Below, piece by piece: positions 53,028-58,184 of a DNA stretch of 64,000 bases. Both the position numbers and the translations under genes were made by a program. Below the pieces are notes generated by a model that saw nothing but the letters and a program-made list of their open reading frames with translations, made no database searches and was not told the origin of the DNA. Origin of the DNA: Pseudomonadota bacterium (lineage in GTDB: Bacteria; Pseudomonadota; Gammaproteobacteria; Burkholderiales; Gallionellaceae); NCBI GenBank assembly GCA_021821945.1, contig JAJZTF010000001.1:1-64000 (forward strand), read 5' to 3'. The stretch's first letter is position 1; every line of letters begins with the position of its first letter.

Positions 53028-54404
53028 ATGAAAAGATTAGCAAGTCTCGCGCTGTGCGCATCCATGTGCGCAGCACCAATGGCCAATGCCGCAAACTGGT
53101 TCGACATTCAAACGATTTCATTGCCGGAATGGGGAAGCGGTAAGTTCATCGGATTCGTTCAACCGCTCTACACGGACTATACGGGATCAAACCTGGCGGC
53201 ATCCAATGGTCAGATTCCCAAATTCAACCTTGTTCAGCCCACATCCAATCAGACTTCGGATCTCTATGTCCAGCGCCTGCGCCTGTTCGAGCGCGGCAGC
53301 ATCAATCCTGACATTTCATACTATGTGGGTGTGGAAGCCGGCCAGAACGCATACGATTACTCATTCGGGAGCTATTCGCCAAGGCTCATCGATGCCAACG
53401 TGGTGTTCAGCAACTACATCCCGGGGGTGAGGCTCGAAATCGGCAACATCCGTGCGCCAGGCCCTGAAGGCGCAATGGAAGGTTTCATGGCTTTCAACTT
53501 GATAGACATGTTTCCGACAGGCATCACGCAGCTGATGCAGCCGACTTTCTACAACCCGTCCGTCGCCTACAGTCAAATTGCGCATCCCATCAACACGGGA
53601 ACCCCATATGCCGTACCTGCAGCCAATGTTTCCGGCAACAACGGCTTCCGTTATCCCGGCGTGATGGCCGAGAACTGGTTCATGGTCGCCCCGCAGACCG
53701 AGGTCGCATACGGCCTGATGCTGGCAGACTACGGCCGCCTTTTCGACGAGGGAACCTCGAACGGGCCGATCATTGCAGGAAGGTTGCAGGCATCCTACCT
53801 CCTGGATGACCCGGAGACGATCAAGTCGTGCGATTACTGCAAGCGTTTCTTCAGGAACGACCTGACCGGCTTCATCTGGGCGCAGCAGGCCCACCCTTCC
53901 ATCATGGGCGTGGAAGCCACGATGAAGCGCGACGGCTTCGGCATGACCTTCAGGGACGGCTACATGCAGCACGGCGCAGTCAATGTGAAGGCTGAATACT
54001 TCGAGGGCAGCGGCAACATCGTCGCACCGGCGGTATTCAACACCTTTCCGGGCGCACCAGCCCAGCTAACCAATGAGCTCGTTTATATCGGCAGCCAGAA
54101 CAAGGCAAACGGGTATTCGGCTTCGGCCGGCTATTTCCTGGACAGGAACTGGGAAGTGGTCGCCCGCTATGATTACTACGACCGCCTGCCCAACCTGGCC
54201 GACCAGGAAAGGGTATTCAAGGACAAGGCCATCGAAGCGGTATACCACATGACACCGATGAACAAGATCGTGGTGGATTACATCAACAGATCCCTTAATA
54301 TTCCCAATCCGGGCGCAATACCTGTCGCTCAGCGCGCCCTGGCCGAATCGATTGCCGGCTCGATCGGTAACCAGTTCGACATCTGGGCAATCTTCGCGTT
54401 CTGA
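53028..54404 (+). CDS. Outer membrane porin-like beta-barrel protein
   Basis: 458 aa. Signal peptide ending in ANA, then alternating amphipathic strands rich in Tyr/Asn/Gly and a C-terminal aromatic residue (FAF), the barrel-assembly signal of outer membrane proteins. LYVQRLRLFERGSINPDISYYVGVEAGQN and YSASAGYFLDRNWEVVARYDYYDRLPN resemble phosphate-selective porin O/P-type barrels. Two Cys (CDYC, about residue 270) are unusual for a porin and are not a haem site, because no His follows. GGGGGAAG precedes the ATG. It converges on the cytochrome/DsrE unit. Confidence 0.78.
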   Translation: MKRLASLALCASMCAAPMANAANWFDIQTISLPEWGSGKFIGFVQPLYTDYTGSNLAASNGQIPKFNLVQPTSNQTSDLYVQRLRLFERGSINPDISYYVGVEAGQNAYDYSFGSYSPRLIDANVVFSNYIPGVRLEIGNIRAPGPEGAMEGFMAFNLIDMFPTGITQLMQPTFYNPSVAYSQIAHPINTGTPYAVPAANVSGNNGFRYPGVMAENWFMVAPQTEVAYGLMLADYGRLFDEGTSNGPIIAGRLQASYLLDDPETIKSCDYCKRFFRNDLTGFIWAQQAHPSIMGVEATMKRDGFGMTFRDGYMQHGAVNVKAEYFEGSGNIVAPAVFNTFPGAPAQLTNELVYIGSQNKANGYSASAGYFLDRNWEVVARYDYYDRLPNLADQERVFKDKAIEAVYHMTPMNKIVVDYINRSLNIPNPGAIPVAQRALAESIAGSIGNQFDIWAIFAF

Positions 54405-54535: not shown

Positions 54536-55045
54536 TTAGTTCATCGGATCCACAACAAAGTGCTTCTTGGCCTGCAGATAGGCGACTTCCGCGAAACCGG
54601 ATGGAACGATGTCGGCGTCCGTCACGTTGTAAAGCGTGTGGAAATCGATGCCCTGCTCGGCCAGCGAGTTGTTGCAAACCACGAAATGCACGCCCTTGCT
54701 CCTCAGCATGTCGATCTGCTTTTGCACCTTCTCGTCAGGATTCTTGAGCAGCGTCAGTCCCTTTGCGTAGAGCACGACCGTCACCTCGAACTTGCCCTTC
54801 CACTCGTCCACCGCCTTCAGTCCATTGGTGATGTTGCGCATCTTCATGCCCTGCACGCCCTTGTCGTCGGTCGTGATCGGCACGACGACCTTCAGCACGC
54901 CATAGGACTCGTGCTTGATGTTGGGCTTGACGTAATTGCTTGCAGCTTCAGCAGCAGGAGCAGCGTCAGCAGCGAGGGATGGAAGCGCTGCAAACCCCAA
55001 GGTGGAAGCAAGAACGGTAAGTGCGAGTTTTTTGTACAGTTGCAT
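54536..55045 (-). CDS. Exported DsrE-family protein
   Basis: 169 aa. Signal peptide (LALTVLASTLGFAALPSLAA), then a DsrE/DsrF-like fold (LKVVVPITTDD, KFEVTVVLYAKGLTLL). One conserved-type cysteine sits in HFVVCNNSLAEQGI, the position where DsrE proteins carry sulfane sulfur. Cytoplasmic DsrE acts as a sulfur carrier. Periplasmic members are less understood. Last gene of the cytochrome unit, 45 bp after the binding protein. Confidence 0.85.
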   Translation of the reverse strand: MQLYKKLALTVLASTLGFAALPSLAADAAPAAEAASNYVKPNIKHESYGVLKVVVPITTDDKGVQGMKMRNITNGLKAVDEWKGKFEVTVVLYAKGLTLLKNPDEKVQKQIDMLRSKGVHFVVCNNSLAEQGIDFHTLYNVTDADIVPSGFAEVAYLQAKKHFVVDPMN

Positions 55046-55090: not shown

Positions 55091-56068
55091 CTACTTTTTC
55101 ACTGCCTTGAATCCGTACTGCTGGAAAATGGCGAGCCCTGAAGGCGAATTCAGGAAGTCTATCCATTTCTTTGCGCCCTCCGGATTTTTTGCGCCATTCA
55201 CCACTGCCGCGGCATAGATTCCGGTCGCATTCTGCTCGTCAGGAATGGCCACATGGCTGATCGGGTTCCCCGCCTTTTCCTGGAAGATCGCCTCGGACTG
55301 CCATGTCACACCTGCCTGGGCCTTGCCCAGCATCAGGTAAAGCGGGGATTCACGGTGATGGATGTGGGTGAGCAGCGTCTCTCCGTTCTTGACCTTGGTC
55401 TCGTAAACAGCTTTCACGAGTTCCGGTCCGCCTGCCTTGTTCAGGCTGGCCTTGATCTGGCGGCCTATCCCTTCGAATTCGGGATTGGGCATCACCAGGC
55501 GCACGCCGGGCTTGCCCAGGTCGTTCAGGGTCTTGATGTTCGCAGGATTACCCTTGGGCACCATGATGGTGAGCGTGTTGGTCGCATAGGTCACGATGGG
55601 TGGCTTCGCATAGCCCTCTTTGACCATGCTTTCGACCCTTCTCAGGCCTGCCGCATATACATCGGCCTGCACGGTCCAGGTCATGTTGCCCACGGTGATC
55701 GTGCCGCCCATCTGGATCTGCTTGGCAACGAGGCCGGGCGGGATCGTCTCATAGTAGATCTTTCCCTTGTATTCCGGGTTCTGCTTCTCGAACTCCGCGA
55801 CCAGCGGCGCCATCGCAAAGTAATAATTGCCTCCCACGAAGATCGCAAGCTTGTGATCCGTCAGATTTCCATGGAAGTCGGGCAGGTTGTCGACTTCCGG
55901 CACGGTGAAATCCATCCCCTTGTCTAGGGCCGGATTGTTTGCACCATGGCTCCAGGGAGGATATACGCCAAGCTCATTGTCCGCCGCGTAGGCGGTTGCA
56001 GCACAGGTGACCGCGAGCGCTGCGCAAGCAGAAAGCAGCAGGTTAAGTTTCGATTTCAAAATCATCAT
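55091..56068 (-). CDS. ModA-like periplasmic substrate-binding protein, no transporter genes
   Basis: 325 aa. Signal peptide ending AYA. Class II binding-protein fold with LAIFVGGNYYFAMAPLVAEFEKQNPEYKG, NTLTIMVPKGNPANIKTL, and a C-terminal KWIDFLNSPSGLAIFQQYGF typical of molybdate/sulfate/tungstate binders. AAGGAG lies 4 nt before ATG 56068; the frame extends to 56104 unsupported. No ABC permease or ATPase is nearby, so it may deliver or sense an anion for the adjacent cytochrome rather than feed a transporter. That role is inference. Confidence 0.85.
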   Translation of the reverse strand: MMILKSKLNLLLSACAALAVTCAATAYAADNELGVYPPWSHGANNPALDKGMDFTVPEVDNLPDFHGNLTDHKLAIFVGGNYYFAMAPLVAEFEKQNPEYKGKIYYETIPPGLVAKQIQMGGTITVGNMTWTVQADVYAAGLRRVESMVKEGYAKPPIVTYATNTLTIMVPKGNPANIKTLNDLGKPGVRLVMPNPEFEGIGRQIKASLNKAGGPELVKAVYETKVKNGETLLTHIHHRESPLYLMLGKAQAGVTWQSEAIFQEKAGNPISHVAIPDEQNATGIYAAAVVNGAKNPEGAKKWIDFLNSPSGLAIFQQYGFKAVKK

Positions 56069-56100: not shown

Positions 56101-58125
56101 TCAATACCGTGAGTCTTTGGGCTTGCCGCCATTCGGCCAGTCATAGACCTTGTCCGGGAAGTCCGGACGGGGCATGTGCGTGAAATACTCGGCCACATCG
56201 ACCGCCTCCTGATCCGTGAGCCCGCCCTGACCCAGAGGGAATTTCATCGTATTGGCCATGGGCATGTTGCTCTTCGCAAACGCGGCACCCGTGTAGGTCT
56301 TCGCGATGCCCGCACCGATATTGAAGGACTGGTCACCCCATAGCGGCGGGAACACGAAGCTGCCATCAGCCCGCTTCATCCCCTCGCCGTTGTCGCCGTG
56401 GCAGACCGCACACTGATCCTTGTAAACCTTCTTGCCATTCTCCACATTCGGAAGGATGCTCTGGCTGATCTTGCCCACGCCGCGCCCGGGGATCGGCTTG
56501 TCCTTCTGCGCATCGCCCTTCATGTTGTCCATGAAGGCGATCATCGCAAGCATTTCCTTCGAATCCTTGTCCAGCACCTTGCCGTTCATGGAACGCCTCA
56601 TGCAGCCATTGACCCTGTCCTTGAAATCGATCACCTTGCCGGCGCGCGGATTGTAGGATGGGAACAGGGCCGAGATGCCGACATAAGGCGAAGCATGGGC
56701 CACCGAACCCCCTGCCAGATGGCAGCTGTTACAGTTCAAGACATCGCCGACATTGTCAGGCAGCATCTTTTTCGTGTGGTACATGAGCCTCATGCCGTAT
56801 ATCAGCTGGTCGGCATTCGGTTTGCTCAGCATGTCCGCAAAACGGGGCAGAGCAAACTTGGAAGGCTCGACGGGCTTGAGTTCAATCCCGTCACGCACCT
56901 TCTTGATCTGTTCCGCCGTCACAGGCTCTCCCTGGTTGCCCCACTTGGTGCGCACGAAAGTCACGATCTCCGCAAGTTCCTTGTCGTTCAGGCTGCGATA
57001 GCTCGGCATGCCGAAAGCGCGCTTTGCAGACTGGGTCTCGGGCGACATCCAGCCGCTCAGCACGACATGGATGACGGAGGTCGGATCCTTGGACTGGACG
57101 GAAGAGTTGTCGGCCAGCGGAGGGAAAATCTTCTGTATCCCCCTGCCATCCATCTGGTGACAGGTCGAACAGAACTGAACATAGCCCAGGCCACCTCGGG
57201 TCTTGTAAAGTTCGTCATCCTTTGCAAGCACAGCCCCCCTGGGCTTCAAGATCCCCGACTCCGGACTGGGTTCCAGGGAACTGATGTATTCGCCCATCGC
57301 AGCAAGATCGCTGTCGCTGAAATTCTGCGTGCTGAAATGCACCACCTCGGTCATCGTGCCATAAGCCGTCGCATGACTGTTGTAGCCGGCCTTCAGGAAC
57401 TGGGCGAATTCGGGACCGGACCACTGATTGCGCAGATTGACCGCATGCCATCCTTCGACAGTAGCGCCCGTCAGGAAGTATTTTCCATTGCTCCCATCCT
57501 GGGTCATGGTCTTTTCCTGGAAGGCTATGCCGCGCGGGGTATGGCATGAACCGCAATGACCCAGCCCCTGCACGATGTAGGCGCCCCTGTTCCATTGGGC
57601 AGACTTCTGCGGGTCAGCCTTGAAGGGAGCATCATCGAGGAACACCAGATTCCAGATTTTCAGGCCGAAGCGCATGCTGAACGGCCACATCATGTCGTTT
57701 TCCTTGTTAGCCTGATTCACAGGCTCAACGCCGTGCATCATGTAGGCATACAGCGCCCGCATGTCTTCAGCCGAGGTCTTGGCAAAGGAAGGATAGGGCA
57801 TTGCGGGATAGAGATTGTGGCCGTCTGCCGCCACGCCCTTGCGCATCGCGCGATCGAACTGCTCGAAGGTATAGCCGCCGATTCCGGTTTTGGGATCCGG
57901 GGTGATGTTGGTGGAATAAACGATGCCGAAAGGCGTCTTCAATCCCAAACCGCCTGCCATGGTCTTGCCGCCCTTGGCCGTATGGCACGCCACGCAATCG
58001 CCGAGATGCGCGAGGTACTCGCCGCGCTTGACCTGATCATCCTGAGTATCGGCCAGTGCCGTGTTCAACAAAAAAGCCGGAAGCACGATACCCAGCCAAC
58101 CCATCAATCTCGATCCAAACGCCAT
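56101..58125 (-). CDS. Pentaheme cytochrome c: triheme dehydrogenase-type subunit fused to TsdA-like domain
   Basis: 674 aa, exported (signal peptide ending ALA). Five CxxCH haem sites at 44-48, 191-195, 319-323, 465-469 and 572-576. Residues ~30-400 match the triheme cytochrome subunit of membrane alcohol/gluconate dehydrogenases. Residues ~430-674 match diheme thiosulfate dehydrogenase TsdA: CNSCHLAGG, DRVNGCMRRSMNG with Cys508 as a possible haem ligand, VFPPLWGDQSFN and KSNMPM. No dehydrogenase flavin or PQQ subunit is adjacent. The predicted role is oxidising a sulfur compound such as thiosulfate and passing electrons along a haem wire. ATG 58125 has GGGAGAGG upstream; the frame extends to 58182 through a palindrome. 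First gene of a three-gene unit. Confidence 0.88.
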   Translation of the reverse strand: MAFGSRLMGWLGIVLPAFLLNTALADTQDDQVKRGEYLAHLGDCVACHTAKGGKTMAGGLGLKTPFGIVYSTNITPDPKTGIGGYTFEQFDRAMRKGVAADGHNLYPAMPYPSFAKTSAEDMRALYAYMMHGVEPVNQANKENDMMWPFSMRFGLKIWNLVFLDDAPFKADPQKSAQWNRGAYIVQGLGHCGSCHTPRGIAFQEKTMTQDGSNGKYFLTGATVEGWHAVNLRNQWSGPEFAQFLKAGYNSHATAYGTMTEVVHFSTQNFSDSDLAAMGEYISSLEPSPESGILKPRGAVLAKDDELYKTRGGLGYVQFCSTCHQMDGRGIQKIFPPLADNSSVQSKDPTSVIHVVLSGWMSPETQSAKRAFGMPSYRSLNDKELAEIVTFVRTKWGNQGEPVTAEQIKKVRDGIELKPVEPSKFALPRFADMLSKPNADQLIYGMRLMYHTKKMLPDNVGDVLNCNSCHLAGGSVAHASPYVGISALFPSYNPRAGKVIDFKDRVNGCMRRSMNGKVLDKDSKEMLAMIAFMDNMKGDAQKDKPIPGRGVGKISQSILPNVENGKKVYKDQCAVCHGDNGEGMKRADGSFVFPPLWGDQSFNIGAGIAKTYTGAAFAKSNMPMANTMKFPLGQGGLTDQEAVDVAEYFTHMPRPDFPDKVYDWPNGGKPKDSRY

Positions 58126-58158: not shown

Positions 58159-58184
58159 ATTTGGAGGGTTATAACCCTCCAAAT
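58159..58184. promoter_or_regulatory. Perfect 26-bp palindrome upstream of the pentaheme cytochrome gene
   Basis: 13-bp arms with no mismatch, centred at 58171/58172 on TTATAA, with GGAGGG/CCCTCC in the arms. It lies 33 bp before the ATG, downstream of the likely -10 at 58234-58239. It could be a repressor operator or a 5'-UTR hairpin. Confidence 0.7.

Follow-up and report, generated by a model that had tools for sequence, protein, structure and literature searches.

For particular TsdA enzymes, HiPIP, a monohaem cytochrome c and TsdB have been named as electron partners. In the crystal structure of TsdA from A. vinosum (AvTsdA), Arg109, Arg119 and Ser127 (precursor numbering) are located beside Cys123 and bind thiosulfate (PMC4423706). 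Thiosulfate-binding residues of this enzyme have been tested by exchange (PMC4423706, PMC6879331), and Ser127 was reported to be invariant in TsdA and to be missing from SoxA (PMC4423706). At haem 2 of the C. jejuni enzyme (CjTsdA) the residues K252, N254 and M255 were described (PMC5146829). A precedent for an acceptor that is fused to TsdA is given by TsdBA (PMC5146829, PMC6879331), which also served as template to model the cytochrome of fructose dehydrogenase (PMC5937911). This use suggests that the modules are akin, but gives no hint of a fusion of a triheme cytochrome with TsdA.

A gene of the latter kind lies in the window, i.e., the whole stretch of 64,000 nucleotides analyzed here (contig JAJZTF010000001.1 of the Gallionellaceae assembly GCA_021821945.1). 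The question raised in the initial annotation, whether this fusion had already been characterized under another name, was followed up in the open-access literature (titles and abstract openings). No description of a triheme-TsdA architecture, under this or another name, was found there, and an earlier mention elsewhere is possible.

The five-haem gene and its distribution

The fusion gene occupies exactly the coordinates of the initial annotation, positions 56101-58125, with the minus strand as coding strand. Its ATG lies at 58125-58123 and its stop codon at 56103-56101, and stops interrupt a plus-strand translation of the same stretch. The gene encodes a protein of 674 residues (P0001) with full-length relatives in other genomes, for which the records consulted give the annotations "c-type cytochrome" or "cytochrome C." The five CxxCH sites claimed earlier for one 674-residue chain are CVACH at residue 44, CGSCH at 191, CSTCH at 319, CNSCH at 465 and CAVCH at 572; outside these motifs the protein contains a single cysteine, C508. 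An N-terminal hydrophobic stretch closing with ALA, judged by eye, predicts that the protein is exported.

For comparison, a set of 84 distinct fusion loci was assembled in which no two fusions are 99% or more identical, and which come from Gallionellaceae, other Pseudomonadota, plasmids and one Nitrospirota MAG. All five CxxCH motifs are present in 83 of the 84 loci, which rules out a chance, assembly or frame artefact. The spacing of the motifs is close to constant: 147 residues from the first to the second (82 of 83 fusions), 145-149 from the third to the fourth, i.e., across the domain junction (81 of 83), and 107 from the fourth to the fifth (83 of 83). Such a near-constant junction fits a fixed docking of the two halves and not a loose tether. 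The exception among the 84 is a plasmid copy from Paracoccus versutus, which matches in two pieces and contains stops in a one-frame translation; this copy appears interrupted (L114, 7001-9129).

The whole fusion was found in eight of 101 genomes comprising the own genome and its relatives. With the own genome included each time, the family sample of 158 genomes contained 15 with a full-length fusion; the count was 20 for 399 genomes drawn from the order, one for 369 of the class and four for 398 of the phylum. As full-length matches are few in each of these samples, the spread of the fusion is patchy. Of the best 80 matches of a scan of named genomes, 49 were full-length fusions and the other 31 were triheme-only loci, which were used as control set. 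Among the matches listed, the fusion hosts include Gallionella, Sulfuriferula, Thiobacillus, Rhodoferax, Azospira, Zoogloea, Comamonas, Ralstonia and Methylobacter as well as 17 Pseudomonas, Xanthobacter, Rhodopseudomonas, Magnetospirillum and the Nitrospirota MAG. A match was also obtained for 610 plasmid records, 11 of which cover 80% or more of the fusion; in two of these (Paracoccus) the match is split into two pieces. Plasmid pMOL30 of Cupriavidus metallidurans CH34 carries the fusion under the annotation "c-type cytochrome"; there (L112) it is flanked on one side by an integrase gene and on the other by a MerT-type gene, with czc nearby, and these flanks suggest that it may have traveled with mobile DNA. 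Altogether, the fusion is a widespread though patchy family rather than a local oddity.

The two halves of the fusion and their ancestry

Two separate homology regions had been proposed for the protein, and phmmer searches recovered both of them, with residues 6-412 matching cytochrome subunits of dehydrogenases and residues 435-662 matching TsdA. The structural comparisons below made use of an AlphaFold2 model of moderate confidence (pLDDT 76, pTM 0.75), which was based on an alignment (A2) of 43 fusions: that of the window, 36 of the 49 listed full-length loci and six of seven other fusions. For the trees, five of six fetched plasmid copies (of the 11 plasmid records) were added to these 43 and the P. 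versutus copy was excluded, so that 48 fusions were compared.

The triheme cytochrome domain spans residues 26-412 (56890-58050, minus strand) and contains the CxxCH motifs at 44, 191 and 319. When compared with PDB chains by phmmer, residues 6-412 matched the cytochrome subunit of an alcohol dehydrogenase (8gy2_B, E 1.1e-105) and also the cytochrome subunits of glucose, fructose and aldehyde dehydrogenases. A Foldseek search with the model returned the same type of subunit (8gy2_B, TMt 0.77; 8jej_C, TMt 0.82). The N-terminal half is thus a triheme dehydrogenase cytochrome, as had been claimed before. M109, M258 and M373 are invariant in all 43 aligned fusions and are candidate distal haem ligands. 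After the first CxxCH the 48 fusions lack a strong hydrophobic stretch (mean of maxima 0.97). As the tails of the 31 triheme-only proteins do not exceed them in hydrophobicity, hydropathy did not separate fusions from controls with regard to a membrane anchor.

The TsdA-like diheme domain comprises residues 435-674 (56104-56823, minus strand) with the CxxCH motifs at 465 and 572. Here, residues 435-662 matched A. vinosum TsdA (4wqc, E 2.2e-42; 4v2k, E 1.6e-41) and residues 422-657 the TsdBA of Marichromatium purpuratum (5lo9, E 2.5e-31) in phmmer searches, while the Pfam family SoxA-TsdA_cyt-c (PF21342) was recognized at residues 465-533 with 43.9 bits (cut-off 27) and Foldseek aligned the model to 4wqc with a TMt of 0.89. 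The cysteine outside the haem motifs, Cys508 (56602-56604, minus strand), aligns with Cys96 of AvTsdA (Cys123 in precursor numbering), which is the catalytic ligand of haem 1, and by this alignment Cys508 is predicted to be the distal ligand of haem 1. R494, R504 and S512 align with Arg109, Arg119 and Ser127 of AvTsdA. All four residues are kept in each of the 48 compared fusions, which supports the view that the C-terminal half retains the catalytic residue set of TsdA. The TsdA-like assignment of the initial annotation therefore withstood the objection that this half might be a generic cytochrome c only, a reading ruled out by the TsdA alignment and the conserved active-site residues. Membership in SoxA was likewise rejected, as the SoxA family model reached only 35 bits (cut-off 110) and Ser512 is present.

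The surroundings of haem 2 read K-x-N-M, with K618 in 46, N620 in 47 and M621 in all of the 48 fusions; M621 is predicted to lie beside this haem, together with His576. An Asn before the haem-2 Met was also found in 17 of 19 rows of free TsdA and in the M. purpuratum enzyme (MpTsdBA), and N620 can therefore not be read as a mark of a reductase or of a direction. Tyr611, on the other hand, occurs in 47 of the 48 fusions and in none of the 19 free TsdA rows, and might be a mark of the fusion.

In a tree of the C-terminal halves, built from the 48 fusions and the 19 free TsdA, all fusions lie on one side of a single branch (100/99). The free TsdA genes that adjoin a fusion are of different affinity: MpTsdBA is joined by six of the seven included (94/87, not starred), and that of L075 clusters with AvTsdA. 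The tree of the N-terminal halves, which was calculated without six triheme rows (L009, L010, L011, L013, L014, L015), unites 46 of the 48 fusions in one clade (100/100) and places L075 and L078 apart; the data do not reject a single clade that includes every fusion (p-AU 0.339). The simplest account of both trees would be one fusion event with a possible later exchange in two lineages.

Gene neighbourhood of the fusion

At 58159-58184, 33 bases upstream of the fusion ATG, the window contains a perfect 26-base palindrome, ATTTGGAGGGTTATAACCCTCCAAAT, which is followed by a T-run on the minus strand and is possibly a ttcA terminator or an operator. A second copy with up to three mismatches does not occur in the window. 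Imperfect versions were located upstream of the fusion in three close relatives, in G046 by script and in G004 and G827 by eye. Scans for promoters and terminators gave counts no higher than shuffle level.

On the same strand, the fusion is followed by a gene for a binding protein and then by a DsrE-like gene. The former (55091-56068, minus strand) encodes an exported solute-binding protein of the SBP_bac_11 family that resembles ModA and sulfate-binding proteins (PF13531, 181.6 bits; SubI, 5.6e-8); for its start the second Met pair was chosen on visual inspection, and its nearest solved relatives are binders of sulfate and molybdate. The latter (54536-55045, minus strand) encodes a DsrE-like protein (PF02635, 35 bits; cut-off 22.7) with one conserved cysteine (VCNNS), and its export was judged by eye. 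Converging with the DsrE gene is a gene for a Porin_O_P-like protein (53028-54404; 18.5 bits, below the cut-off of 20.9), which is found in the same place in G046 and G004. The gap between both genes is only about 130 bases in the window; in two close relatives, the space between porin and DsrE genes is occupied by a second DsrE-family gene (L021, 11191-11766; L022, 5709-6341).

Neighbours within 6 kb were sought across the comparison set by tblastn, with queries taken from some of the fusion loci and from one free-TsdA locus. At least one of the sought sulfur genes was present at 40 of the 84 fusions, but at none of the 31 triheme-only loci listed. Most frequent were the binding protein (24 of 84) and DsrE (19 of 84, with the cysteine kept in all 19), followed by a TtrS-like kinase (11 of 84); four of these kinases were examined and had TtrS as their best family, but their scores of 306-339 bits stay below the cut-off of 750. 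Free TsdA was found near nine fusions and TsdB near eight; thus, a separate tsdA stands beside the fusion at L041, L043, L045, L070, L075, L076, L077, L138 and L141, eight of which also have tsdB, and two kinds of TsdA are neighbours at these nine loci. A YeeE-type transporter was present at seven fusions (one member checked: Pfam Sulf_transp), a thiosulfate dehydrogenase of the Acidithiobacillus type at five (one member checked: NF052225 over cut-off) and SoxB at one. In Ca. Gallionella acididurans, such a thiosulfate dehydrogenase (NCBIfam NF052225, 385.9 bits; cut-off 300) stands beside both the fusion and the binding protein. Fusion, binding protein, DsrE and YeeE occur together at six of the 84 loci.

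The 15 Gallionellaceae loci include the binding protein in 13, DsrE in 12 and YeeE in five cases, while a TtrS-like kinase was found at one of them only (G022). None of the sought sulfur neighbours was detected within 6 kb of 44 fusions, of which 11 have less than 6 kb of sequence on a side; 15 of the 17 Pseudomonas fusions belong to this group. The own genome encodes a SoxB over cut-off on a different contig, and among the genomes of the genus SoxB exceeded the cut-off in six of 10 that bear the fusion and in 19 of 66 others, which is a weak association. In a one-contig Gallionellaceae genome (L125, 2425-6944) the fusion operon adjoins genes that resemble aprA, aprB and sat by eye.

The picture for dehydrogenase genes is the reverse. 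A partner gene lay within 6 kb of 28 of the 31 triheme-only loci listed (GMC at 20, subunit-3 at 20, xanthine-dehydrogenase-like at six and PQQ-type at two; types named by eye), but of only one of the 84 fusions, where the neighbour is a weak GMC match with 22% identity. In the window, the 6 kb on either side of the fusion contain no gene of the GMC, subunit-3, PQQ or xanthine-dehydrogenase type. The earlier claim that the fusion does without a flavin or PQQ partner agrees with these data for the four partner types sought, and the triheme half is no longer tied to a dehydrogenase partner.

Possible function and relation to known systems

Taken together, the fusion probably acts in the periplasm as a TsdA-type enzyme that can work both as thiosulfate dehydrogenase and as tetrathionate reductase, with the triheme half as its built-in electron relay. 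The course of events, from activity, direction and haem ligation to electron path and redox partner, all of which we infer, might be as follows. Arg494, Arg504 and Ser512 would bind thiosulfate next to the haem held by His469 and Cys508, and two thiosulfates would be joined to tetrathionate at this C-terminal site, or the reverse. The electrons would move from there to the His576/Met621 haem and on to the fused three-haem domain, which would replace a separate acceptor such as TsdB and could deliver them, via a soluble cytochrome c, to a terminal oxidase. Handling of the sulfur substrate or product may, in Gallionella, be the task of the binding protein and DsrE encoded nearby. Thiosulfate oxidation is most likely the working direction in Gallionella, and an exit via cytochrome c is favoured there by the context of binding protein, DsrE, YeeE and sox genes. 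The initial annotation had proposed that the TsdA site feeds electrons straight into a haem wire leading to quinone or a terminal oxidase, without a dehydrogenase partner. Its structural part, a TsdA-like C-terminal and a triheme N-terminal half with mostly no dehydrogenase-partner genes nearby, is borne out; the electron route is retained here as a proposal.

The dehydrogenase relatives of the triheme cytochrome deal with ubiquinone, the potential of which lies near +100 mV. As the thiosulfate/tetrathionate couple is found at +198 mV (PMC6879331), a quinone-linked triheme domain would favour the reduction of tetrathionate, and the fusion could mainly be a tetrathionate reductase in which quinol feeds the triheme domain and the TsdA site reduces tetrathionate. 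The K-x-N-M surroundings of haem 2, which are those of the tetrathionate reductase CjTsdA (PMC5146829), and the TtrS-like kinases near 11 of the 84 fusions (TtrS being the top family of all four that were examined) would fit such a role. However, the Asn before the Met is shared with MpTsdBA and the 17 free TsdA rows, and among the 15 Gallionellaceae loci only one has the kinase, whereas 13 have the binding protein. Furthermore, TsdBA of Vibrio is likewise driven by TtrRS and was demonstrated to oxidize thiosulfate (PMC11293645), and a TtrS-like sensor therefore does not settle the direction. As a general account this role appears rather unlikely, but tetrathionate reduction from quinol may be a stronger possibility in the TtrS-associated lineages.

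An exported DsrE that keeps its cysteine in 19 of 19 cases, the co-occurrence of fusion, binding protein, DsrE and YeeE at six loci, and the description of SoxA/TsdA family members as enzymes that link thiosulfate with a second thiosulfate or some other thiolate (PMC4423706) could also point to a SoxA-like conjugation, in which thiosulfate is placed on the cysteine of DsrE (or of another carrier) and the product is passed on, e.g., to the YeeE-type importer. Yet all 48 fusions retain Ser512, whose equivalent is reportedly invariant in TsdA and missing from SoxA, and the search of the 6-kb surroundings gave no DsrE for 65 of the 84 fusions, which makes this reaction improbable. Similarly doubtful is a broader idea, according to which fusion, binding protein, DsrE and YeeE would form an undescribed periplasmic thiosulfate route, either by conjugation to the DsrE cysteine or by tetrathionate coupling under control of DsrE, with the electrons running straight down the fusion's own haem chain, the sulfur reaching the YeeE importer and Gallionella-type iron oxidizers gaining a second energy source. 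TsdA relatives such as C. jejuni CccC, which have a Met in place of the Cys ligand and show low activity (PMC5146829), are a precedent for a cytochrome that merely transfers electrons with a catalytically dead TsdA half; with Cys508, both Arg and the Ser kept in 48 of 48 fusions, this is very hard to credit here. A TsdA-type enzyme with a built-in relay thus stays the preferred reading.

Such a fusion encodes its acceptor within the gene, with a cytochrome of another type than TsdB, and offers a testable gene for thiosulfate/tetrathionate metabolism in relatives of Gallionella, in Pseudomonas and on pMOL30 of C. metallidurans. Triheme cytochromes of this type are used for direct electron transfer in bioelectrochemistry, and the fusion links this cytochrome type to an inorganic sulfur site. 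Sideroxydans lithotrophicus belongs to the same family, Gallionellaceae. This species turns thiosulfate into tetrathionate though its tsdAB is not induced (PMC8788666).

With regard to described systems, the free TsdA of A. vinosum (4v2k/4wq7) shares with the fusion the fold, the two haems, the position of the Cys ligand and the set of two Arg and one Ser, and the C. jejuni enzyme shares the K-x-N-M at haem 2. Unlike the fusion, free TsdA has no fused acceptor, and the A. vinosum enzyme carries Lys208 where 47 of 48 fusions have Asn620. The Acidithiobacillus cluster (tsd, sbp, doxDA and rhd; tsd and sbp are also included in the thiosulfate cluster of A. ferrooxidans) likewise combines the gene of a sulfate/molybdate-type binding protein with that of a thiosulfate dehydrogenase (PMC6335251), and a Tsd-type gene and the binding protein accompany the fusion at five of the 84 loci. 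The Acidithiobacillus Tsd was described as an enzyme of a different kind from TsdA (PMC6335251).

TsdBA of M. purpuratum (5lo9) also consists of a cytochrome acceptor and a C-terminal TsdA catalytic domain. Its acceptor is, however, a diheme unit (PMC6879331) and that of the fusion a triheme dehydrogenase cytochrome, 5lo9 aligned to the whole fusion model with a TMt of only 0.51 (rmsd about 10; Foldseek), and the TsdA half of MpTsdBA falls outside the fusion clade. Membership in TsdBA is ruled out by an N-terminal half with three CxxCH that matches dehydrogenase cytochromes best. The triheme subunits of quinoprotein and flavoprotein dehydrogenases (8gy2_B, 7w2j_C, 8hdd_B) resemble residues 6-412 in their three CxxCH and their fold; structural alignment with 8gy2_B gave 40% identity. 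In contrast to these subunits, the chain of the fusion continues into TsdA past about residue 412, and 83 of 84 fusions have no adjoining dehydrogenase gene of the four types sought. The novelty of the architecture thus plausibly lies in its acceptor, a triheme cytochrome that otherwise serves sugar and alcohol dehydrogenases.
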